From the NCBI GenBank assembly GCA_947626275.1, contig CANQRL010000002.1, positions 1-64,000 of the forward strand: 64,000 bases of DNA. The letters run 5' to 3'. Of this stretch, positions 5,313 through 62,599 are shown in pieces. The translations under genes were made by a program, and so were the position numbers. A model generated the notes under the pieces. The model was given only the letters and a program-made list of their open reading frames with translations, searched no databases and was not told where the DNA came from. The stretch is from an uncultured Bacilli bacterium (GTDB lineage: Bacteria > Bacillota_I > Bacilli_A > RF39 > UBA660). Every line of letters starts with the position of its first letter. Position 1 is the first letter of the stretch.

Positions 5313-7396
5313 GCCGAATCCCCCACGCTAGTTTCCTCTAATAGTTCATTTTCTGGATTTTCTCCTATTTTCTTAATTAAATCGTAGGTAATAATAGCAT
5401 TCGAGATACTGATAATTCGATCGGAATATGTGATGTATTTCTCAATTTCTTCCCTTGAAATCTCCGCTTCTGGATTGATTTGACGATAGTTATCCCTTGC
5501 ACTGTTGTAATAAATATTATTTGTCATCCAGTTTCCAGTTGGAAAAACAATGACGTTATTTTCAACACTGAAAATGTCATGGCCTAAAGCATATTTATTG
5601 TAAAATCCAAGCATGTTTCCAAGAGTTGGTTGCGTATCGATCATACCCATTACCGTTTTTACCTCTTGATTATACTTTGTTCCGACAATGTCTTTTGACC
5701 AAATGATAAATGGAACGCTTCGGTTAAGAGCTTCATTATACTCATCAATGACGATACATTCTTCTTTATCACAATTTTTTACTCGATCTTCTTCTGGAAT
5801 GTAGTTGTAATAACGATTATACTGTTTAGGAGCAAGCTTGCTGTCATGATCTCCATAAATCACTAAAACCGTATTATCAAGAAGTCCAGCTTCTTCCAAT
5901 TCCTCCATCAATTCGCCGATTGCTTCATCCGCATAGTGAGCTGATTTGAAATAGTTTCCAAGCTTCCATCCTTCCATATAAGGAGCAACGACTTCTTCCA
6001 TTTCTCCAGTTTCTTCATTTTTCTTTTCATACTTGTAGTTTACTTCATATACCCAGTTGTTCTCTTCTGCATAGCGGTTAATATCACTAAATGGCGTATG
6101 GTTCGTTAACATAATCATAACCCCATACCAATTTTCATGCTCACTAGCAATTCCTTTTAAAATCTCAGTGGATTGTCTGAAGAACGATTTATCTGTTAAT
6201 CCAAGATAAATGGTTTCATCAATTTCATAAGCTGATTTATAACAATAGAAATGGTCATATCCTAAAGATGGATGCATAACACGTCGATTCCATGCATCAC
6301 AACTGTTTGCATGCATACTGAAGGTATAATAACCCATCTCTTTTAAAAGTTTTGGAGTCGTGACATAATCTCTATCGAAATAGTTCATAAATACCGTTCC
6401 ACTCGTCGATGGCATAAGAGAAGTATTAAAGGTAAACTCGGTATCACTACTCGTTCCTGCACTTTCTTGTGCATAGAAGTTAGAGAAATAAATCCCCTCT
6501 TTTGCAAGACGATTTAGATTTGGCGTTACTTCTATCCCGTTGAAAGAAGCTGGCTTTCCACCTAAAAAGTCATCTGAAATTAAGAAGTTTTGAATACTCT
6601 CTGCATGAATAACGAGAACGTTCTTTCCTTTAAATAAATCGGTATACTGATTTCGTGTCGTTGGTTCTTCTGAGACATCGGCATAAAACTCCCGGAAATT
6701 TTTAGCAGCCTCGTCATATCCAAACATACTGTTCAATTTTGTTCGAACACTCGTCACCAAATCATTAAACTGATATACATAAATACCAAACTCTTGAACG
6801 ACAAATTCCCGGTTCCACTGTTTACTTAGACGACTAATATCGGTACTAGTCAACATAGAAATAAAAAGACCTAACAAAATAAGGGTAACAACAATCGTAT
6901 TTAAAAATCTTATCTTTGGAAACTCCATCTGTTCTACTTTGTCATAGTACCCTTTTTTACGAAGTTGTAAATGGATGAATACTAATCCAAAAAGTTGCCA
7001 AAGATATATAAAATCCTTAATTTCCAAAATATTTTCTACAACAGCATCCGTATATCCCCCTAATTGTGTAAGTGTTTTCAATAAGGAAATAGAGGCAAAG
7101 GATACATAGTTTTTAAAGTAGATTGCATTAATCATACAAATAGCCGTCAATAAAATCGATACCGCAAAAAAATAGCGGAAACGATGTTTTGGTTTAAAAC
7201 AATAGGCAAAAGCACCTAATACTAAAATGACAACTAAATCGGCTAACATCGGTTTCACAGCCAAAAAATTAGCAATAGTAAATTGGCGTACTAACATGGC
7301 ATTAATTAGTGAAGTAACAATAAAAGTAATAAAAAGAATGTTGGTTGCTACATACTCTTTGCCATGATGAAGCGCAGCTTTTAAAGATTGTTTCAT
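5309..7396 (-). CDS. LTA synthase family protein (membrane sulfatase-fold phosphoglycerol transferase)
   Basis: 695 residues. Five transmembrane helices in about the first 190 residues anchor an extracellular sulfatase-fold domain. Catalytic and metal-site candidates are the Glu of HAESIQN (about 267), the nucleophilic Thr of AGTSSDTEF (about 315) and the DHD of YGDHDSK (about 515). LtaS enzymes polymerise glycerol-phosphate from phosphatidylglycerol onto a glycolipid anchor to make lipoteichoic acid. It is transcribed from its own TTGAAA/TATAAT promoter and is coupled to the 218-aa membrane protein downstream. Confidence 0.93.
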   Translation of the reverse strand: MKQSLKAALHHGKEYVATNILFITFIVTSLINAMLVRQFTIANFLAVKPMLADLVVILVLGAFAYCFKPKHRFRYFFAVSILLTAICMINAIYFKNYVSFASISLLKTLTQLGGYTDAVVENILEIKDFIYLWQLFGLVFIHLQLRKKGYYDKVEQMEFPKIRFLNTIVVTLILLGLFISMLTSTDISRLSKQWNREFVVQEFGIYVYQFNDLVTSVRTKLNSMFGYDEAAKNFREFYADVSEEPTTRNQYTDLFKGKNVLVIHAESIQNFLISDDFLGGKPASFNGIEVTPNLNRLAKEGIYFSNFYAQESAGTSSDTEFTFNTSLMPSTSGTVFMNYFDRDYVTTPKLLKEMGYYTFSMHANSCDAWNRRVMHPSLGYDHFYCYKSAYEIDETIYLGLTDKSFFRQSTEILKGIASEHENWYGVMIMLTNHTPFSDINRYAEENNWVYEVNYKYEKKNEETGEMEEVVAPYMEGWKLGNYFKSAHYADEAIGELMEELEEAGLLDNTVLVIYGDHDSKLAPKQYNRYYNYIPEEDRVKNCDKEECIVIDEYNEALNRSVPFIIWSKDIVGTKYNQEVKTVMGMIDTQPTLGNMLGFYNKYALGHDIFSVENNVIVFPTGNWMTNNIYYNSARDNYRQINPEAEISREEIEKYITYSDRIISISNAIITYDLIKKIGENPENELLEETSVGDSA

Positions 7397-7419
7397 TTCT
7401 TCACTCCAATCTATTTTTC

Positions 7420-7448
7420 ATTATAGCACTAAACAATGTTTTTTTCAA
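7420..7448 (-). promoter_or_regulatory. Promoter of the LTA synthase operon
   Basis: TTGAAA (7443-7448), a 17-bp spacer and TATAAT (7420-7425) on the minus strand, 24 bp before the LTA synthase start codon. Confidence 0.75.
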
Positions 7449-7452
7449 ACAT

Positions 7453-7479
7453 AGAAAAAAGAGGGTCTCCCTCCTTTTT
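7453..7479 (-). terminator. Intrinsic terminator after the HAAS-domain gene
   Basis: AAAAAGGAGGG-AGA-CCCTC stem followed by six T, starting within the stop codon of the gene. Confidence 0.8.
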
Positions 7480-8794
7480 ATTCGAGAATTCTTGCTAAAG
7501 CCGTCTCTGTTCCGTAAACTTTTACATCAACGGTATCCAGTTTATCGTAATCGAAAATGTTGTTCTTCTTCAAGTCCTCTAAGATATTTTGGTATAAGTA
7601 TTGAACATCGTAATATTCTCGTTCATCAGCAATTGGATAAAGAATTAAATAATCTACCTCTTCTTCCTGAGAAGTTCTCAAAATAACATCGTAAAGTTCA
7701 TCATAATAAGTCATTTCTACGATTAACTCATCATCCTTTAACGAGTTATCTACAACTTTTTCTATCTTTCCTGTTAAGGACTGAATATACATGTCATTTT
7801 TTAAGGAAATGGTAGTGGATTCCGTAAATGGCTTAAATGCGCTGGATTCTAACGTTTTTGGATAATGGAAAGAAAAGATATTATCTACCAACAAGATATG
7901 TCCTACTAAAAGAGCAAGCAAAGATACAATAAGAGAAAAGCGATGACTCTTTGTTTTATGGTTTAAAGCATCCGTTAAGTAAGCAATGAGTAAAACACTT
8001 AAGAAAAAATAACCTAGAAGAACAATTGCCAAGCCAGCGATAGATACTCCCTTATAAATCAAGAAGACAGCAAAGGCAAGTAAGGCACATAGAATAAAGG
8101 CAATTAAAAGAAGAGGAATAAACGCAATGACATAGATGATAACGCGTAAAAAGAATACGAAATAATCCGTTTGTTTTTTTGCCTTTTTTCCTTTCTTGAT
8201 AGGACGATCTTCAACCTTTTCAGAGACCGTCTTGGAAGGCTTTTTGATATTTTCTTTAAATAGATAAATACCTAAAGCAACACAAATAGCAAAATAAAGA
8301 ATCGATAAGACAAATTTTAATAAAATGGTTAAAGCCGTATTGAATGGGTAGAAAAGGCCATCTAAAACAACAATTCCTGCCTCATTCAATAACCAGAAAG
8401 GAAGTTTTAAAATCATAAAAGCAAGAAGGAGAACTAAAATTTTTAAGAGAAGTTCAAAGAAAGTCTCTAAGGCATTATCCCCACTAGGACGATTGATGTA
8501 GTAAATGATATCCTCTGTAATCTCCGCTAAAGCTTTCGCCCCTGCCTCAATTCCACGATTGATAGGATTTCTGCTTTTTTCTCTTTTACTATACTCCTTA
8601 TTAATATGATAGTCCTCATAAATATCTTCCACAATCTCATCTATTGGTTTTAAGGCGGAAAGAATTTCTTTTTCTGATTTTCCATTCTCCTTTTCACCTT
8701 CTATTTGTGATTGGTATTTTTTGATTACTTTTTTCCGTTCTTGTTCATCTAACAAAGATAATCGAGATTCCAATTCTTCTAAAAAAGATTCCAT
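7478..8794 (-). CDS. HAAS-domain (DUF1700-like) polytopic membrane protein
   Basis: 438 residues. Residues 1-65 form a helical domain typical of HAAS/DUF1700 (FLEELESRLSLLDEQERKKVI, then a DEIVEDIYEDY segment). About seven hydrophobic segments follow, with a charged Lys-rich loop near residue 195, and then an extracellular C-terminal domain of about 120 residues. In other Firmicutes such proteins often pair with PadR-type regulators; none is present here. Translation starts at an ATG behind GGTGATACT. Function unknown, probably envelope-related. Confidence 0.75.
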   Translation of the reverse strand: MESFLEELESRLSLLDEQERKKVIKKYQSQIEGEKENGKSEKEILSALKPIDEIVEDIYEDYHINKEYSKREKSRNPINRGIEAGAKALAEITEDIIYYINRPSGDNALETFFELLLKILVLLLAFMILKLPFWLLNEAGIVVLDGLFYPFNTALTILLKFVLSILYFAICVALGIYLFKENIKKPSKTVSEKVEDRPIKKGKKAKKQTDYFVFFLRVIIYVIAFIPLLLIAFILCALLAFAVFLIYKGVSIAGLAIVLLGYFFLSVLLIAYLTDALNHKTKSHRFSLIVSLLALLVGHILLVDNIFSFHYPKTLESSAFKPFTESTTISLKNDMYIQSLTGKIEKVVDNSLKDDELIVEMTYYDELYDVILRTSQEEEVDYLILYPIADEREYYDVQYLYQNILEDLKKNNIFDYDKLDTVDVKVYGTETALARILE

Positions 8795-55281: not shown

Positions 55282-55301
55282 AAAAAAAGCTCATAGAGCT
55301 T
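55282..55301 (-). terminator. Intrinsic terminator after the isolated pseudopilin gene
   Basis: AAGCTC-TAT-GAGCTT and seven T, ending just before dusB. Confidence 0.75.
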
Positions 55302-55644
55302 ATCTTAAAGTACAAGTAATTTTTCCATCTTTATTAAAAATTTCAACATTACCATCGTAACTATCTGTGGTTGGATTCTTTAAAGACTCGGTAATATATC
55401 CGCCTTTTCTTAACTCTTCTAAAGAAACCGTATAAGAGTGAACACTAAGATTACTATCTCTATGCTCTACTTGCATATACGTCTGAGCGGCTAGACAAAC
55501 CGTCTTTTCATACTCCGCCATTTCATTTTTCTGAGAATCTTTTAATGTTCTCGTGATACTAGGAACTGTTACTAGCATCATAACTGCCAAAATAACTAAA
55601 ATGGCCATCAATTCTACTAAGGTAAAACCCTTTTCCAACCTCAT
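55300..55644 (-). CDS. Type IV pilin-like protein, isolated short form
   Basis: 114 residues. The prepilin signal MRLEKGFTLVEL has the KG|F cleavage site and Glu at mature position 5, followed by the hydrophobic alpha-1 helix. The rest is short, with two Cys. Only a weak resemblance to the six clustered pilins beyond the signal. A minor pseudopilin is the likely role. No pilin-assembly ATPase or prepilin peptidase is in the window. Confidence 0.85.
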   Translation of the reverse strand: MRLEKGFTLVELMAILVILAVMMLVTVPSITRTLKDSQKNEMAEYEKTVCLAAQTYMQVEHRDSNLSVHSYTVSLEELRKGGYITESLKNPTTDSYDGNVEIFNKDGKITCTLR

Positions 55645-56026: not shown

Positions 56027-56593
56027 CTATTTCACAGATGTATTACTTTTTCTTTTTAAAAGCTTGTATCCCGTAGCCTCAATTTCCGCTGGCGTGACAA
56101 CTTTTGAATTTAAGGCTTCTTTAATCGTATAGTCTTTTTGATTCACAATGACGTAAACACAGCCACTCTGTAAAGAACTAAAGTAATAGATATACTCACT
56201 ATCTTGATAGTATTCATCGATGACTTGAGCAGTAACATCTCCACAGCGATTCTCTACACGAATATTTTTAGCAGCTACATTTTCCTGTGAACCAGGACTT
56301 ACTGTATTGCTATTGCTAGAAGAATTAACATTACTATTGCTAGTAGAATTAGAGTTACTATTAGAGTTACTTGGCTGCTCTACATTTGAGTTTTGATTAC
56401 TTTCCTCGTTACTAGACGAAATGGTTTCTTCATCATTACTATTCGAATTAGAAGAGACATTGGTAGAATTTGGACTAGCACTTTGATTAGCATCCGTTTT
56501 CTTGCCACCTTGCTCTACAATATAAGTTCCTAATATACAACATACAACCAATAACCCCATAAAAGCTATCGCAACATTTTTACTAATTCTCAT
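56027..56593 (-). CDS. Membrane-anchored protein with Ser/Asn linker
   Basis: 188 residues. An N-terminal transmembrane anchor (about 8-28), a long Ser/Asn/Glu linker (about 38-105), and a small C-terminal domain with two Cys. No family recognised. It shares only the linker style with the 295-aa protein at 37.5 kb. It starts on the last base of der (TAATG), so co-transcribed with it. Confidence 0.7.
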   Translation of the reverse strand: MRISKNVAIAFMGLLVVCCILGTYIVEQGGKKTDANQSASPNSTNVSSNSNSNDEETISSSNEESNQNSNVEQPSNSNSNSNSTSNSNVNSSSNSNTVSPGSQENVAAKNIRVENRCGDVTAQVIDEYYQDSEYIYYFSSLQSGCVYVIVNQKDYTIKEALNSKVVTPAEIEATGYKLLKRKSNTSVK

Positions 56594-57912
56594 TATTCTT
56601 GCTCCCCTTTATTCTTAAATTGTAACACGATTGGTGTTCCCGTAAAATCAAAAGATTCTCGGATTTTATTTTCCAAATATCGTTCATAGGAAAAATGAAT
56701 TAATCCCTTACTATTGACTTGAATATTAAACGTTGGCGGATTAACACCTACTTGCGTACTAAAATAGATTTTTAATCGTTTTCCTTTGTAAGATGGTGGT
56801 TGATTTAAAGTGTAAGCATCCATAATCACGTTATTTAATAGACTGGTCTTAATCTCTCTATGACTATTTTCATAGGCTCTTAAAACCTCAGGCATCAACG
56901 TATGAATTCGCTTTTTTGTCTTTGCTGATAGAAAAACTACTTCTGCATAAGGCATAAATTGGAAGTTCGCTTCAATATCCTTCTTCCACTTTTTCATCTC
57001 CGCATCCTTATCCTTGATAACATCCCATTTATTGACCACAATGACAAGAGCCTTTCCTGCCTCTATTGCGTAACCTGCAATATGCTTATCATGCTCCACA
57101 ATTCCTTCTTCAGCATTTAAAACAAGGCAACAAACATCAGACCGGTCAATTGCTTTCATACTTCTTAAAAGGCTATATTTTTCAACGCTTTCATATACCC
57201 TTCCTTTTTTACGCATACCAGCAGTATCAATTACCACATAGTCTTCTCCATGATACGTAAATACCGTATCAATCGCATCTCGAGTTGTTCCAGCAATATC
57301 ACTAACAATGACACGATCTTCATTTAATAGAGCATTTACTAAACTACTTTTACCAACATTTGGTCTTCCAATAATAGAAAACTTAATCAAATTTTGATAC
57401 TCTTCTTCATAAGGAGCAAAATCTTTTACAATTTCCTCCAACAATTCTATAAATCCTAAATTATGTTCTCCACTTACTTGAAAATAGTTGTCAAACCCTA
57501 ATTCATAAAACTCATATTTCGTATCTTCTATACGACTACTATCACACTTATTAATCGCAACGATGACTTTTCGATTAGACTTTAAAAGCATATCACGAAC
57601 CGCAAAATCATTCGCTGTTAATCCTTCTTTTCCATCTACGACAAAGACAATCACATCTGCCTCATCAATCGCAAGACGCGCCTGCTCCTTTATTTCATCG
57701 TTAAAATCGCTATTTTCTAAATCAATTCCCCCTGTATCTACTAGGTGAAAACTATAATTTTTATATTCTACATTTCCATAAATTCGATCACGAGTAATAC
57801 CCGGAGTATCTTCAATAATGGATACTTTTTTTCCCACTAGACGATTGAAGATGGTACTCTTTCCTACGTTTGGTCTTCCGAGTAAAGCAACAACTGGTTT
57901 TTTCACGGGCAT
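56593..57912 (-). CDS. der: Ribosome assembly GTPase Der (EngA)
   Basis: 439 residues with two GTPase domains in tandem: GRPNVGKST (residues 12-20), DTGG and NKCD in the first, and GRPNVGKSS (about 183), DTAGM and NKWD in the second, then the KH-like C-terminal domain. Essential in 50S subunit assembly. Downstream gene (188 aa) is translationally coupled. Confidence 0.97.
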   Translation of the reverse strand: MPVKKPVVALLGRPNVGKSTIFNRLVGKKVSIIEDTPGITRDRIYGNVEYKNYSFHLVDTGGIDLENSDFNDEIKEQARLAIDEADVIVFVVDGKEGLTANDFAVRDMLLKSNRKVIVAINKCDSSRIEDTKYEFYELGFDNYFQVSGEHNLGFIELLEEIVKDFAPYEEEYQNLIKFSIIGRPNVGKSSLVNALLNEDRVIVSDIAGTTRDAIDTVFTYHGEDYVVIDTAGMRKKGRVYESVEKYSLLRSMKAIDRSDVCCLVLNAEEGIVEHDKHIAGYAIEAGKALVIVVNKWDVIKDKDAEMKKWKKDIEANFQFMPYAEVVFLSAKTKKRIHTLMPEVLRAYENSHREIKTSLLNNVIMDAYTLNQPPSYKGKRLKIYFSTQVGVNPPTFNIQVNSKGLIHFSYERYLENKIRESFDFTGTPIVLQFKNKGEQE

Positions 57913-57961
57913 CCCCTCTTTCCTCCTGTATTATAACATGTTTTTCGCCTTTTTCCTAGAC

Positions 57962-57988
57962 AAAAAAAGTTCAATTTCGTTGAACTTT
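57962..57988 (-). terminator. Terminator of pilin gene 6
   Basis: AAGTTCAA-CGAAA-TTGAACTT and T run. Same GTTCAA/TTGAAC stem family as the other pilin terminators. Confidence 0.85.
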
Positions 57989-58465
57989 CTATTCTGACAT
58001 TCTAACGGCTGCTCCCTTTGTCGTAACAATGACATTTCCTTCCTGATCTTTTCCATCATTAGGATTATCATAGAAACGGAATTGAATGGTACTACCACTG
58101 ACAGAGCATCCCTCTAATTGTAAAAATCCTGTTTCATCGTCATAATTTACTACTTCACAGTGAACTTGACTACCACTATAACTAACAGGCTTTTCAATAT
58201 ATCCTGTCTGTCCTTGTAATCCTACTTTAGCAGTCTGTCCATCATCAGAAACAATAACATCTCCACCCATATAATCTGGATCTGACATAGCAGAAGAAAT
58301 GGCTTGAGCAACTCCAGCTGCATATCCCTCTATTGATCTTGCCATTGATGACTCTCTTGCATTTTGAATAATACCTAAAATAATAGGAGATGCAATTAAA
58401 GCAATGATAGCTAAAATTACGATAACAGCTAACAATTCTATTAATGTAAACCCTTTCTTATTCAT
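57989..58465 (-). CDS. Type IV pilin-like protein 6, divergent member of the array
   Basis: 158 residues. Starts MNKKGFTLIELLAVIVILAIIALIASPIILG, so it keeps the prepilin peptidase site (KG|F), Glu5 and the hydrophobic helix with the ARESSMARS segment. The C-terminal half shares the PVSYSG and two-Cys pattern and the KGAAVR end with the others but is otherwise distinct. Its promoter (TTGACC/TACGAT, 17 bp) lacks the upstream repeats seen in front of pilins 1-5. Confidence 0.92.
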   Translation of the reverse strand: MNKKGFTLIELLAVIVILAIIALIASPIILGIIQNARESSMARSIEGYAAGVAQAISSAMSDPDYMGGDVIVSDDGQTAKVGLQGQTGYIEKPVSYSGSQVHCEVVNYDDETGFLQLEGCSVSGSTIQFRFYDNPNDGKDQEGNVIVTTKGAAVRMSE

Positions 58466-58493
58466 TCACTTCACTACCCTTCTACTATTTATT

Positions 58494-58522
58494 ATCGTAT
58501 CATAAATTATAGTTTGGGTCAA
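58494..58522 (-). promoter_or_regulatory. Promoter of pilin 6
   Basis: TTGACC (58517-58522), 17 bp, TACGAT (58494-58499). The upstream 15-bp-spaced repeat of the other pilins is absent. Confidence 0.65.
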
Positions 58523-58530
58523 TTTCTTAC

Positions 58531-58565
58531 AAAAGAAAAGTTCAACTTTCAACCGTTGAACTTCT
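58531..58565 (-). terminator. Terminator of pilin 5
   Basis: AAGTTCAAC-GGTTGAAA-GTTGAACTT and T-rich tail, behind the stop codon. Confidence 0.85.
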
Positions 58566-58569
58566 TTTT

Positions 58570-59037
58570 CTATCCAGCAGCTGCTTCTCTTACAGCAGCA
58601 CCTTTTGTAGTTGTAGAACTATCTGGATTATTATCATACTTGAAGTTAATATCACTACCCTTTACATGGCATCCTGTCATAGATAGGAATCCTGTAGACT
58701 TATTATAGGTAATCGTTGTACATTGAATTTCGCTACCACTATATGATGGTTCTTTCGTTACAGCTGTACCATTGGCTCCAGCTGCAGTTGCTACCCATTT
58801 TCCATCTTGTTGTTTTACTTCTACGTCCCCACCACCGTAGTTCGTGTCATACATAACACTTGAGATAGCTGTATTAACTGCACTTGCAAAGTTCTCTACT
58901 GATCTTGCCATTGATGACTCTCTTGCATTTTGGATAATTCCTAAAATGATTGGAGATGCGATTAATGCGATGATAGCTAAAATTACGATTACGGCTAATA
59001 ACTCGATTAACGTAAATCCTTTTGTATTTGACTTCAT
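58570..59037 (-). CDS. Type IV pilin-like protein 5
   Basis: 155 residues, MKSNTKGFTLIEL signal, mature protein from F8 after the Gly. The alpha-1 helix is followed by the conserved ARESSMARSVENFAS and MYDTNYGGGD stretch, a variable block (VEVKQQDGKWVATAAG), and the PSYSGSEIQC...GCHVKGSD end with two Cys, probably a disulfide like the D-loop of type IV pilins. C-terminus AVREAAAG. Confidence 0.93.
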   Translation of the reverse strand: MKSNTKGFTLIELLAVIVILAIIALIASPIILGIIQNARESSMARSVENFASAVNTAISSVMYDTNYGGGDVEVKQQDGKWVATAAGANGTAVTKEPSYSGSEIQCTTITYNKSTGFLSMTGCHVKGSDINFKYDNNPDSSTTTKGAAVREAAAG

Positions 59038-59069
59038 TCACTCACCACCTTACCTTCTTATACAATACC

Positions 59070-59113
59070 ATCATACCACAATTTTTTTTGTTCGACAACT
59101 TTTCTTTCGACAA
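59070..59113 (-). promoter_or_regulatory. Promoter and upstream repeat of pilin 5
   Basis: TTGTCG (59093-59098), 17 bp, TATGAT (59070-59075). A TTGTCGA copy starts at 59113, exactly 15 bp upstream of the -35. The third repeat seen in the others is not recognisable. Confidence 0.7.
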
Positions 59114-59140
59114 TTTTTTATTCGAAAGATAAGTAATATC

Positions 59141-59174
59141 AAAAAAAATTCAACAAAATCGTTGAATTTTTTTC
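59141..59174 (-). terminator. Terminator of pilin 4
   Basis: AAATTCAAC-GATTTT-GTTGAATTT and T run. Confidence 0.85.
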
Positions 59175-59183
59175 CTATTAAAA

Positions 59184-59633
59184 TTAAGCAGTTTCTCTTA
59201 CAGCAGCACCTTTTGTCCCACTAGTTGGATTATTATCGTATTTAAATTTAATGTCACTACCTTTTACATGACATCCTGTCATAGATAAATATCCTGTATT
59301 CTTATCATAAGTAATCGTTGTGCATTCAATCTCACTACCACTATATGATGGTTCTTTTTCTACTGGAGTACCATTGGCACCTTCTGCTGTTGCTTTTCCT
59401 GTTGTAGTATCTACAGTTACATCTCCACCACCGTAGTTCGTGTCATACATAACACTTGTTATAGCCGTTTGTACTGAACTTGCGAAATTTTCTACTGATC
59501 TTGCCATTGATGATTCTCTTGCATTTTGGATAATTCCTAAAATGATTGGAGAGGCAATCAATGCGATAATCGCTAAAATTACGATTACAGCTAATAACTC
59601 AATTAATGTAAATCCCTTCGTATTTGTTTTCAT
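59184..59633 (-). CDS. Type IV pilin-like protein 4
   Basis: 149 residues, the shortest of the five, MKTNTKGFTLIEL signal. The variable block is VTVDTTTGKATAEGANG; then PSYSGSEIEC...GCHVKGSDIKF with the Cys pair, and the C-terminus is AVRETA. The upstream DNA is of the same type as pilin 1 (TTGCGA/TACGAT, with a palindrome over the -10). Confidence 0.93.
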   Translation of the reverse strand: MKTNTKGFTLIELLAVIVILAIIALIASPIILGIIQNARESSMARSVENFASSVQTAITSVMYDTNYGGGDVTVDTTTGKATAEGANGTPVEKEPSYSGSEIECTTITYDKNTGYLSMTGCHVKGSDIKFKYDNNPTSGTKGAAVRETA

Positions 59634-59655
59634 AACTCACCACCTTTACCTTCTT

Positions 59656-59726
59656 ATACGATATAATCGTATCATAATTTTGATAAGTTCGCAATGGTTC
59701 AATTGGCAATTTTTTCTTTTTGACGT
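59656..59726 (-). promoter_or_regulatory. Promoter, palindrome and repeats of pilin 4
   Basis: TTGCGA (59689-59694), 17 bp, TACGAT (59666-59671). TTGCCAA starts at 59709, 15 bp upstream of the -35, and a weaker copy with GTCAA starts at 59726, 17 bp further. A perfect 7-3-7 palindrome (ATACGAT-ATA-ATCGTAT, 59656-59672) overlaps the -10. Confidence 0.7.
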
Positions 59727-59730
59727 TAAC

Positions 59731-59762
59731 AAAAAAATTCAACCTTTTTGGTTGAACTTTTT
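59731..59762 (-). terminator. Terminator of pilin 3
   Basis: AAGTTCAACC-AAAAA-GGTTGAATTT, behind the stop codon. Confidence 0.85.
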
Positions 59763-59772
59763 CTTCATTAAA

Positions 59773-60240
59773 TTAAGCTGTTTCTCTTACAGCAGCACCT
59801 TTTGTAGTTGTAGGACTATCTGGGTTGTTATCATACTTGAAGTTAATATCACTACCCTTTACATGGCATCCTGTCATAGATAGGAATCCTGTACTTTTGT
59901 CATATTTAACTTCTGTACACTCAATCTCACTACCACTATATGATGGCTCTTTTGTTACAGTAGTACCTGCAGCTGCTCCCGTTGCAGTGGCAGCCCATTT
60001 TCCTGATTCATCTTTGGAAACGGTTACATCTCCACCACCATAGTTTGTATCATACATAACACTTGAAATAGCTGTATTGACTGCACTTGCAAAGTTTTCT
60101 ACTGATCTTGCCATTGATGACTCTCTTGCATTTTGGATAATTCCTAAAATAATTGGAGATGCAATCAATGCGATGATAGCTAAGATTACGATTACGGCTA
60201 ATAACTCGATTAATGTAAATCCCTTGGTATTTGCTTTCAT
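59773..60240 (-). CDS. Type IV pilin-like protein 3
   Basis: 155 residues, MKANTKGFTLIEL signal. Variable block VTVSKDESGKWAATATG. Then the PSYSGSEIEC...GCHVKGSD Cys pair and AVRETA. Conserved alpha-1 helix and ARSVENFAS segment as in pilins 1, 2, 4 and 5. Confidence 0.93.
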   Translation of the reverse strand: MKANTKGFTLIELLAVIVILAIIALIASPIILGIIQNARESSMARSVENFASAVNTAISSVMYDTNYGGGDVTVSKDESGKWAATATGAAAGTTVTKEPSYSGSEIECTEVKYDKSTGFLSMTGCHVKGSDINFKYDNNPDSPTTTKGAAVRETA

Positions 60241-60273
60241 AATTCACCACCTTACCTTCTCTTATACGATATC

Positions 60274-60334
60274 ATCATACCACAAAATTTTTTATTCGAC
60301 AACTTTTCTTTTGACAATTTTTTCTACTTGACAA
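60274..60334 (-). promoter_or_regulatory. Promoter and repeats of pilin 3
   Basis: TTGTCG (60297-60302), 17 bp, TATGAT (60274-60279). Full TTGTCAA copies start at 60317 and 60334, 15 and then 17 bp further upstream: the clearest example of the three-copy layout. Confidence 0.75.
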
Positions 60335-60368
60335 TAAAAAAGGTTCAACTTTAAATTGTTGAACTTTT
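60335..60368 (-). terminator. Terminator of pilin 2
   Basis: AAAGTTCAAC-AATTTAAA-GTTGAACCTT and T run. Confidence 0.85.
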
Positions 60369-60386
60369 CTTATTTATGCTTTGAAA

Positions 60387-60854
60387 CTAAGCATCCTCTC
60401 TTACAGCAGCACCTTTGGTTCCACCATTAGGATTATTGTCATATTTGAATTTGATATCACTACCCTTTACATGGCAACCTTTCATTTTTAGATATCCTGT
60501 ATTTTTATCATAGGTAATTCCATCTTCTCCGTCACACTCAATTTCGCTACCACTATATGATGGTTCTTTCGTTACAGCTGTACCATTGGCTCCAGCTGCA
60601 GTTGCTACCCATTTTCCTGATTCATTTTTCTTGACTTCTACATCTCCACCACCATAGTTGGTATCATACATAACACTTGAAATAGCAGTTTGAACTGCAC
60701 TTGCAAAGTTCTCTACTGATCTTGCCATTGATGACTCTCTTGCATTTTGGATAATTCCTAAAATAATTGGAGATGCAATTAATGCGATGATAGCTAAAAT
60801 TACGATTACAGCTAATAACTCAATTAATGTAAATCCTTTTGTATTTGACTTCAT
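60387..60854 (-). CDS. Type IV pilin-like protein 2
   Basis: 155 residues, MKSNTKGFTLIEL signal. Variable block VEVKKNESGKWVATAAG; the Cys region carries the insert ECDGEDG, and the C-terminal part reads LKMKGCHVKGSDIKF, AVREDA. Otherwise like pilins 1, 3, 4 and 5. Confidence 0.93.
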   Translation of the reverse strand: MKSNTKGFTLIELLAVIVILAIIALIASPIILGIIQNARESSMARSVENFASAVQTAISSVMYDTNYGGGDVEVKKNESGKWVATAAGANGTAVTKEPSYSGSEIECDGEDGITYDKNTGYLKMKGCHVKGSDIKFKYDNNPNGGTKGAAVREDA

Positions 60855-60888
60855 TCACTCACCACCTTACCTTCTCTTATACGATATC

Positions 60889-60949
60889 ATCATACCACAT
60901 TTTTTTTCGCTCATCAACTTTTCTTTTGACAATTTTTTCCGTTTGACAA
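60889..60949 (-). promoter_or_regulatory. Promoter and repeats of pilin 2
   Basis: TTGATG (60912-60917), 17 bp, TATGAT (60889-60894). TTGTCAA copies start at 60932 and 60949, 15 and 17 bp apart as in pilin 3. Confidence 0.7.
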
Positions 60950-60982
60950 AAAAAAGTTCAACTTTGACCGTTGAACTTTTTT
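60948..60982 (-). terminator. Terminator of pilin 1
   Basis: AAAGTTCAAC-GGTCAAA-GTTGAACTTT and T run. Its 3' end meets the upstream repeat of pilin 2. Confidence 0.85.
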
Positions 60983-61453
60983 CTATCCAGCAGATGTCTC
61001 TCTTACAGCAGCACCTTTTGTAGTTGTAGCACTGTCTGGGTTGTTATCATATCTGAAATTGATATCGCTTCCTTTTACATGACATCCTGTCATAGTTAAA
61101 AATCCTGTAGATTTATCATATGTAATATTTCCACATTCAATTTCACTACCACTATATGATGGTTCTTTCGTTACAGTCGTGTCTGCTGCAGCTCCTGCTG
61201 CAGTTGCTACCCACTTAGTACCGTCTTTTTTAACAGTGACATCTCCACCACCGTAGTTAGTATCATACATAACGCTTGAAATAGCTGTATTTACTGAACT
61301 AGCAAAGTTTTCTACTGATCTTGCCATTGATGACTCTCTTGCATTTTGGATAATTCCTAAAATAATTGGAGATGCGATTAATGCGATAATCGCTAAGATT
61401 ACGATTACGGCTAATAACTCGATTAATGTAAATCCTTTTGTATTTGTCTTCAT
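60983..61453 (-). CDS. Type IV pilin-like protein 1
   Basis: 156 residues, MKTNTKGFTLIEL signal. Variable block VTVKKDGTKWVATAAGAAAD; the Cys region ECGNITYDKS, then GCHVKGSDINFRY and the C-terminus AVRETSAG. First gene of the array and nearest gpr. Prepilin peptidase would cut before F8. No assembly machinery is in the window, so the apparatus must be encoded elsewhere. Confidence 0.93.
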   Translation of the reverse strand: MKTNTKGFTLIELLAVIVILAIIALIASPIILGIIQNARESSMARSVENFASSVNTAISSVMYDTNYGGGDVTVKKDGTKWVATAAGAAADTTVTKEPSYSGSEIECGNITYDKSTGFLTMTGCHVKGSDINFRYDNNPDSATTTKGAAVRETSAG

Positions 61454-61475
61454 AATTCACCACCTTTACCTTCTT

Positions 61476-61546
61476 ATACGATATAATCGTATCATAATTT
61501 TGGTAAGTTCGCAATGATTCCATCGACATTTTTTTCTACTTGACAT
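61476..61546 (-). promoter_or_regulatory. Promoter, palindrome and repeats of pilin 1
   Basis: TTGCGA (61509-61514), 17 bp, TACGAT (61486-61491). ATGTCGA starts at 61529 and ATGTCAA at 61546, giving the 15 and 17 bp spacing. A perfect 7-3-7 palindrome (ATACGAT-ATA-ATCGTAT, 61476-61492) covers the -10. Confidence 0.7.
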
Positions 61547-62556
61547 TATCGATTATGAAAAACTTTATTAAGAGAAAGAGAAAGTAGTTTACTTAATTCT
61601 TCTATTACAAAATCAATTTCTTTCGTAGTTACCATAAAGTTATATCCAATGGGACTTAATACTTCATAGATAAGTTTCTTGGTTTCTTCTTCATCTAAAG
61701 TTCCTAACAAACCTAGTAATTTTTCCTTGTCTTCTTTAGAAATTGTATTGTCTTCTTTTAAGTAATTTACATTCATCATCAATTTATATTTTGGACTATT
61801 CATATGTTTTTTCATATAGACATAATGTTTTGCAAGACAAGAAATCGTATCACTTACAATCGTAACGGCATCGACAACGGTTGGTACACCAATAGCAATC
61901 ACAGGAATTCCTAATAGTTCTTTACTGATTTCTTTTCTGCTATTTCCTACCCCACTACCTGGATGAATCCCAGTATCCGTCATTTGAATCGTCTTTTGGA
62001 GTCGATTAATAGAAGTACTTGCTAAGGAATCAATTGCTACAATCATTGTAGGTTGTAACAGTTCAATCACTTTGGAAAGTAAATCACTCGTTTCAATTCC
62101 TGTTTTTCCCATCACACTAGGAGTAAAGACAGAAACTCTTTGATAGCTAGGATCTGCCATTCCTAGTTCATATAAATGATTGGTAACAATAACCTCTTGA
62201 ACCGTTTTTGGACCTAAGGCATCGGGCGTCGAATTCTCATTACCTAGTCCAATTACTAAGATATGATCCTGTTTTGATTTAGGACGAATCATTTTCTTTA
62301 ATTCTTTTATACAAACCTGTAAAACTTTTTTACGATTTTCTTCATCTGTAATATCTTCAAATTCAATCGTAATATACTTTCCAGGCTTTTTGCCAATCGC
62401 AGAACTTCCTTTCCTTCCTACAATGACAGAAGTAACCGTAATATCTTCTATTTGTTTTTCATTGATACGAACACCCTGAATTGATGTTTTTTTAGAAACA
62501 GAATCAATCGCTAAATCGGTGCGTAAAGAATACTTACTTAAATCGACTTCATGCAT
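61546..62556 (-). CDS. gpr: Germination protease (GPR endopeptidase)
   Basis: 336 residues from the ATG at 62556, with GGTGAT before it and the expected MHEVDLSKYSLRTDLAID start, the region of the GPR zymogen propeptide. The GLGNENSTPDALGP, GIETSDLL, ATTMIVAIDSLAS-like and TDTGIHPGSGVGN segments are the family hallmarks. GPR degrades small acid-soluble spore proteins at germination. Next to rpsT, as in B. subtilis. No terminator is seen before the pilin 1 promoter. Confidence 0.95.
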   Translation of the reverse strand: MHEVDLSKYSLRTDLAIDSVSKKTSIQGVRINEKQIEDITVTSVIVGRKGSSAIGKKPGKYITIEFEDITDEENRKKVLQVCIKELKKMIRPKSKQDHILVIGLGNENSTPDALGPKTVQEVIVTNHLYELGMADPSYQRVSVFTPSVMGKTGIETSDLLSKVIELLQPTMIVAIDSLASTSINRLQKTIQMTDTGIHPGSGVGNSRKEISKELLGIPVIAIGVPTVVDAVTIVSDTISCLAKHYVYMKKHMNSPKYKLMMNVNYLKEDNTISKEDKEKLLGLLGTLDEEETKKLIYEVLSPIGYNFMVTTKEIDFVIEELSKLLSLSLNKVFHNR

Positions 62557-62599
62557 GATTATCACCACTAATATTTTTAACAAAAATATGTTATTTTAT

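Follow-up and report, generated by a model that had tools for sequence, protein, structure and literature searches.

The first 64,000 nucleotides of contig CANQRL010000002.1 (here called the window), from an uncultured Bacilli bacterium (GTDB lineage RF39; UBA660), contain six intact prepilin genes, p1 to p6, arranged head to tail between the germination protease gene gpr and the GTPase gene der. We think that the array probably encodes strongly expressed, complete major pilins which are served by one machine and co-assembled into filaments of mixed surface, a reading that draws on sequence features and on analogy with known pili. The PilD encoded on contig 1 would process all six prepilins, and PilB and PilC would polymerise them via their common α1 helix. 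Since this assembly helix is common and interchangeable, the subunits would be able to mix within one filament and give it a mosaic surface of different heads; p6 would be a second, older class of subunit.

The pilin family, the pilus machine and filaments made of several pilins are already known. The array differs from these in its number of complete copies, in the separate cassettes, in lying between gpr and der away from the pil cluster, and in its recurrence at this locus in at least three genera. A literature search, which missed most subscription journals, found no report of such pilin arrays in these bacteria, and the accessible parts of PMC12306168 and PMC3244431 report none.

Six complete prepilins with one assembly helix

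The six open reading frames (ORFs), numbered along transcription, lie on the minus strand and span positions 57989-61453 (Table 1), in agreement with the six head-to-tail pilin genes that a preceding sequence-only reading of this DNA had described; a seventh prepilin gene of the window is absent from that reading. All six products begin as class III prepilins (a short G-terminated leader, followed by F-T-L-I-E and the hydrophobic helix; PF07963, N_methyl) and pass the PF07963 cut-off, and Pfam scans of p1 and p6 are concordant. From one repeat copy to the next the distance is 566-614 bases. DNA identity is 81-88% among p1-p5 and 62-66% between p6 and these five. No truncated or promoterless copy was seen within the array.

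The assembly helix (residues 6-46) is identical in all six proteins. Among p1-p5 the identity extends over residues 4-52 and 60-72, with changes at 53, 55 and 59, so the near-invariant N-terminus of about 65 residues reported earlier was nearly right. The densest variation, accompanied by length changes, falls at residues 73-95; the earlier reading had described a central variable block of 20-30 residues. However, lighter variation also occurs further towards the C-terminus, at residues 106-122, 132-144 and 153-156; of the C-termini that had been described as constant, the two cysteines (C107 and C124 of p1) and the KGAAVRE motif are kept throughout p1-p5. An AlphaFold2 monomer model based on 31 family sequences (mean predicted local distance difference test score 83.9) shows a helix at residues 10-62 followed by seven strands, and the variable block covers the strands at 73-77, 80-87 and 93-96. 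By this model and by analogy with other pilins, the variable part would be a surface loop.

As a proxy for expression we used the codon adaptation index (CAI), calculated against 17 ribosomal-protein genes of contig 10; the 195 ORFs scored include most of these reference genes. p1-p5 score 0.698-0.745 (ranks 8, 10, 11, 19 and 21) and p6 0.673 (rank 27), values close to the 0.69-0.81 of the reference genes; the median over the 195 ORFs is 0.510. The genome's eleven other PF07963 prepilins score 0.433-0.635, a prepilin-like neighbour of PilB with no Pfam match 0.413, and PilB, PilC and PilD 0.49-0.52. The head halves of p1-p6 taken alone give 0.65-0.79, and the bias is therefore not an effect of the shared helix. 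These values suggest that every copy in the array has been strongly expressed over the long term: because all six are codon-biased like ribosomal-protein genes, they look like expressed major pilins, not silent cassettes.

Table 1 Features of the pilin array and its surroundings, in window positions.
Feature	Position	Strand	Description
p1	60983..61453	-	Prepilin, 156 residues, complete, main class (YDTNYGGGDV); CAI 0.745
p2	60387..60854	-	Prepilin, 155 residues, complete, main class; CAI 0.735
p3	59773..60240	-	Prepilin, 155 residues, complete, main class; CAI 0.698
p4	59184..59633	-	Prepilin, 149 residues, complete, main class; CAI 0.734
p5	58570..59037	-	Prepilin, 155 residues, complete, main class; p2-like/p3-like mosaic; CAI 0.706
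p6	57989..58465	-	Prepilin, 158 residues, complete, second class (SDPxYMGGDV); groups with the G001 der-adjacent pilin; CAI 0.673
p1 promoter dyad, class A	61474..61496	-	Exact pattern match
p2 promoter dyad, class B	60877..60899	-	3 mismatches; hexamers listed by consensus scan
p3 promoter dyad, class B	60262..60284	-	3 mismatches; hexamers listed by consensus scan
p4 promoter dyad, class A	59654..59676	-	Identical to p1 dyad
p5 promoter-like site	59070..59098	-	TTGTCG-17-TATGAT (consensus scan)
p6 promoter-like site	58494..58522	-	TTGACC-17-TACGAT (consensus scan)
Terminator-like hairpin after p1	60947..60985	-	z -5.7
Terminator-like hairpin after p2	60333..60374	-	z -5.6; also in consensus scan
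Terminator-like hairpin after p3	59727..59767	-	z -5.7; consensus scan places it on the + strand
Terminator-like hairpin after p4	59135..59179	-	z -4.5
Terminator-like hairpin after p5	58528..58572	-	z -3.5; also in consensus scan
Terminator-like hairpin after p6	57958..57995	-	z -2.4; weakest of the six
gpr, germination protease	61546..62583	-	PF03418, E 2.5e-104; upstream array boundary, also in relatives (synteny)
der, GTPase (presumed)	56593..57912	-	Downstream array boundary; ORF and synteny
Seventh prepilin of the window	55300..55644	-	ComGC-like, under curated cut-off; outside the array; CAI 0.548

Promoter-like sites and terminator-like hairpins

Every gene of the array is followed by a GTTCAAC/GTTGAAC-like hairpin with a T run. 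As RNA, all six fold better than nearly all of their shuffles (z -2.4 to -5.7), which bears out the earlier claim that each copy has its own terminator. A consensus scan for terminators returned 9 rows against 1.5 ± 1.3 in shuffles; five of these rows belong to the hairpins after p2, p3 and p5, and the other four lie inside coding sequence.

The claim that each copy also has its own promoter holds with a qualification. A -35/-10-like pair can be made out by eye before each of the six genes, but the total of a promoter scan is not significant (23 against 16.5 ± 4.2), and the scan lists none at p1 or p4. We credit these sites because they are conserved between copies and relatives: in the promoter region p1 and p4 share 46 identical nucleotides (nt) and p2 and p3 share 41 nt, and a similar layout is present in three other members of the genus (G001, G008 and G009) and in a further genus (G030). 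A ribosome-binding-like stretch resembling GGTGGTGA precedes each gene, in a variant form before p6.

Two promoter classes can be distinguished, A (p1 and p4) and B (p2, p3 and p5). A -10 dyad with the pattern TATGATACGATNNTATCGTATAA occurs within 3 mismatches at four places in the 1.4 Mb assembly, all of them before array pilins: it is exact at p1 and p4, has three mismatches at p2 and p3, and is not found at p5 or p6. The reversed control pattern gave 0 places. The promoter spacers of p2 and p5 contain A8 tracts, a candidate for phase variation.

The main rival to co-assembly is differential use of these promoter classes, in which each copy or class (A; B; p6) would be active under its own conditions and the pili would be mostly homopolymeric. 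We consider this unlikely, but it is the alternative with most in its favour: each gene has its own promoter-like site and hairpin, stretches are identical within a class (p1/p4, p2/p3), G009 and G030 also have separate cassettes, and the accessible text of PMC4371748 offers a partial precedent in the planktonic and sessile subsets of Haloferax PilA1-6. However, the restriction of the dyad to four places in the array suggests that p1-p4 are controlled together, all copies have high codon bias, and three gene pairs in G151, from another genus, have no terminator between them and look co-transcribed.

The gpr-der interval and the history of the copies

We compared the interval in the genome under study (G000), in other members of its genus (G001-G011) and in two further genera (G030 and G151). 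Between gpr and der, G000 has 6 pilins, G009 has 5, G001 has at least 4 (split between two contig ends) and G008 has a single one; G030 has 2, and G151 has 7, with at least three more elsewhere in its genome. In G002, G003, G005, G006, G010 and G011, der comes immediately after gpr and no pilin lies between them. G004 has a single strongly diverged copy (26% identity to p1, with GYTTIEFL instead of GFTLIELL), and in G007 the gene after gpr is a different one and the 1.3 kb read there contains no pilin motif. PilB (PF00437, E < 1e-100) is found in G000, G001, G008 and G009 and is absent from the other 8 of the 12 genus members. Canonical pilins are present at the locus in all four genomes with PilB and in none of the eight without it.

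Across the family we counted tandem rows by hand, taking as a row at least two listed matches that share a strand and start less than 1 kb apart. Such rows occur in at least 11 of 141 genomes among the matches listed in one search, and in at least six further genera (G012, G017, G019 (barely), G025, G037 and G039) among those listed in another. A scan of genome contigs for relatives of the array returned one locus, in the congener G009; for a second strain of the species, a scan of viral contigs gave no relative.

A maximum-likelihood protein tree groups p6 with the der-adjacent pilin of G001 (support 100/99), and the two have a common insertion close to the C-terminal end. In this tree p1-p5 and the five copies of G009 form unresolved combs, with 8 of the 14 inner branches drawn open. 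At the DNA level the G009 copies are 83-89% identical to each other and 66-72% identical to p1-p5. The grouping of p6 and the likeness of the other copies by genome therefore speak for two old pilin classes, and on this sequence evidence p6 is the second, older class, orthologous to the G001 pilin. Both classes are present in G000; the G001 copies read all belong to the p6 class, and G009 has only the p1 class.

The helix and the heads differ in how they have diverged. In p1-p5, nonsynonymous divergence (dN) is 0.007 and synonymous divergence (dS) 0.30 over codons 1-48, compared with 0.30 and 0.70 in the variable block, and the G009 copies give similar values. In the ten G151 copies (seven at the locus and three elsewhere), alignment positions 11-60 are 100% identical as protein while only 52-69% of the codons agree, which is comparable to the 41-75% codon agreement in the heads. 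As the helix protein stays constant despite synonymous divergence, we attribute this constancy to selection on the protein and not to recent copying, and the lower helix dS in p1-p5 may come partly from exchange or codon constraint. Positive selection on the variable block was considered and rejected: dN/dS there is 0.43-0.47, in a gappy alignment. Across codons 36-47, 33 nt are identical in p1, p2, p3, p5 and p6 amid synonymously diverged flanks, an identity which is weakly unusual after allowing for pilin codon usage (P 0.018).

Some stretches have been exchanged between copies. In p5, 78 nt of the head region are identical to p2 and a later 66 nt are identical to p3. When all sites are used, a run-length permutation test gives P 0.0003 for p1-p5, 0.002 for G009 and 0.006 for G151. 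Such mosaics would also fit recombinational antigenic variation, in which a single expressed copy is rewritten by gene conversion from a reservoir, as with pilE and pilS of Neisseria. We find this improbable here. With silent sites only, P is 0.07 for p1-p5 and 0.013 for G009; dS between the copies is 0.2-0.7, and exchange has therefore not homogenised them; and each copy has a start codon and codon bias of its own in addition to the ribosome-binding-like, promoter-like and terminator-like elements described above. No recombinase was recognised among the ORFs flanking the array, although no systematic search for recombinases was made. The sequences are best read as copies that persist for long while their heads diverge, with stretches exchanged occasionally.

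Neisseria pilins have a constant N-terminus and a disulfide, and the silent copies lack promoters. The variable head and the gene conversion between copies, as described in published abstracts, resemble what we see here; the accessible part of PMC3899283 gives the silent copies as partial. No silent, partial, promoterless donors are present in the array, and since completeness and codon bias extend to all copies, Neisseria-like silent cassettes were rejected as the principal reading.

The copies could also do no more than increase the supply of a single major pilin in this small genome. This gene-dosage explanation would agree with the high codon bias, with a copy number that ranges from 1 to 7 at one locus and with a dN/dS that does not demonstrate diversifying selection in the variable block. 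However, dosage alone predicts interchangeable heads, whereas the heads differ in every copy, including in length, and p6 is an old separate class. Because the heads differ, dosage alone is the less likely explanation, and we give it slightly less credence even than antigenic variation.

Several features of the locus and of its relatives lie outside these questions. The name der comes from sequence resemblance and not from a family search. The gpr and spoVIF genes in the window agree with the spore-forming host proposed in the sequence-only reading. In G007 and G010 (L121 and L126) gpr is shortened, to 300 and 293 residues, perhaps through decaying sporulation. Prepilin-like genes near der occupy the place of the seventh window prepilin in G009, G008 and G030, and the G151 version has 444 residues. 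The gpr-adjacent pilin of G001 (L069:694-1230) carries an extra proline-rich tail of ~25 residues.

Contig 2 of G009 encodes a secreted-looking protein of 1194 residues (L083:4174-7758) with eight matches to the Listeria-Bacteroides repeat. Its C-terminal ~110 residues are homologous to α1C and the head of the array pilins, without the hydrophobic α1N, and the protein thus appears to be an InlB-repeat-like protein with a pilin head on its C-terminus. An M26 (IgA1-type) peptidase-like protein is encoded upstream (L083:22-3588). A search of 145 family genomes, one per genus, matched the array pilins of G000 and G151 together with five weak places in G093. In G041 and G132, prepilin-like starts occur within open frames of 1,135 to 2,699 residues, which are candidates for giant prepilins.

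The pilus machine and proposed co-assembly

The sequence-only reading had proposed a search for pilB, pilC and pilD elsewhere, and all three are found outside the window: a cluster on contig 1, away from the array, encodes PilB, PilC (T2SSF) and PilD (A24_N, Peptidase_A24) together with two prepilin-like genes, and the genome thus has the PilB-, PilC- and PilD-like genes of a type IV pilus system. The PilC-like protein (L066:5865-7826) has ~240 extra residues at its N-terminus. Genome-wide, two genes score over the PF00437 cut-off, of which the one on contig 1 is PilB-like and the one on contig 2 TadA/VirB11-like; these are the only T2SSE genes over the cut-off. The genome, which is 92.6% complete, yielded no PilT. 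T2SSE proteins of ~440-460 residues in the relatives appear PilT-like by Pfam coverage. We read them instead as Tad ATPases, because their neighbours in G008 look TadE- and ParA/CpaE-like by eye.

The machine might chiefly build a ComG-like pilus for DNA uptake, with the heads as DNA-binding variants. ComEC-like and ComEA-like (SLBB/HHH) genes start 4 kb beyond the PilB-PilD-PilC cluster, PilT was not found, and PilB also matches ComGA, with a score under the cut-off. However, each of the 10 genus members searched has PF03772 (ComEC), even the six among them without PilB (G002-G007; in G002 with stops), and a shorter ComGC-like prepilin is encoded separately. Because ComEC does not track PilB in the genus, we reject a competence pilus, which is the least probable of the alternatives.

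Co-assembly of several major pilins is known from Streptococcus sanguinis, for which we considered strains 2908 (PilE1/PilE2) and SK36 and CGMH010 (PilA1/A2/A3). According to the accessible parts of PMC10628169 and PMC6497953, PilE1 and PilE2 form a heteropolymer in an order thought to be stochastic, and are identical in the helix core while differing in the α-β loop and the tail. More than one major pilin per pilus is rare among bacteria: PMC10628169 calls the two of S. sanguinis unusual and the structure the only known bacterial heteropolymeric pilus. PilA1 and PilA3 are identical over residues 1-53, as stated in the accessible text of one of PMC10628169, PMC6497953 and PMC11121087. Like this monoderm, the genome under study has several closely similar complete major pilins with near-identical α1 helices. 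As far as the available portions of these sources go, two of the three S. sanguinis paralogs are >90% alike and the third is more distant, as p1-p5 are with respect to p6. In S. sanguinis, however, 2-3 genes lie in the pil locus and PilT is present. Here there are six genes (a relative has seven plus at least three), every one with a promoter-like site and a hairpin of its own; they lie away from pilBCD, and PilT was not found.

The pilA genes of Haloferax volcanii occur in pairs at several loci and are not known to form one array. Like p1-p6, PilA1-PilA6 number six and differ from one another outside an N-terminal H-domain that is nearly the same in all; in the accessible sections of PMC4371748 they are not co-regulated with the assembly genes, each of them alone can form (short) pili, and piliation is abolished only on loss of all six. 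Haloferax is an archaeon, and the likeness concerns the H-domain, the regulation and the piliation. Both this system and PilE1/PilE2 fit the array better than the comparison with Neisseria that was made initially.

Based on these analogies, we infer that the array pilins co-polymerise. The sequence-only reading had called them co-expressed or switchable: co-expression is supported indirectly, by complete, codon-biased genes and a machine in the same genome, while switching finds no direct support. Several observations weigh against co-assembly. Codon bias speaks for strong expression over the long term and not for simultaneous expression; it is also not exclusive, as 7 of the 25 top-CAI ORFs are neither ribosomal proteins nor pilins, and donor copies of a conversion system could inherit it. 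The promoter classes (p1/p4 and p2/p3/p5) could mean separate regulation, and dN/dS in the variable block (0.43-0.47) is under 1. Foldseek against the PDB gave no match with E < 0.001. In a second structure comparison (VIA) the six best rows are pilins or pseudopilins, namely Thermus pilin (Z 5.2), PAK pilin (4.5), GspH, FimU, EpsH and an Xcp pseudopilus chain (3.8), but all Z values are below 8 and unrelated rows begin at 3.7, and the rows therefore point only weakly to a pilin fold. Finally, the match between PilB and the array comes from a single genus, in 12 genomes that share ancestry and are 79-95% complete, and one or two losses might explain it.

A broader proposal, which we put forward tentatively and would sooner doubt than assert, is that in several genera the pilus is a mosaic built from 5-10 complete major pilins with an invariant helix. 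These would be encoded in cassettes unlinked to the assembly genes, their long-kept heads would be reshuffled by conversion, and the diversity would be displayed at once on each filament. If true, the array would extend heteropolymeric pili from two or three subunits to a repertoire of 5-10, would allow one to test how an invariant assembly helix tolerates head variation, and would contrast with Neisseria in that many subunits are displayed instead of one being switched. Uses such as adhesion to varied surfaces or escape from phages or antibodies are conjecture.

Contig 17 encodes two further prepilins, of 482 and 470 residues (L061:4354-5802 and 6528-7940), with von Willebrand A-like domains, of which only the second passes the Pfam cut-off for this domain. 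Modular minor pilins occur in S. sanguinis, according to the accessible part of PMC8179133, and by analogy the two contig 17 prepilins may be tip adhesins.

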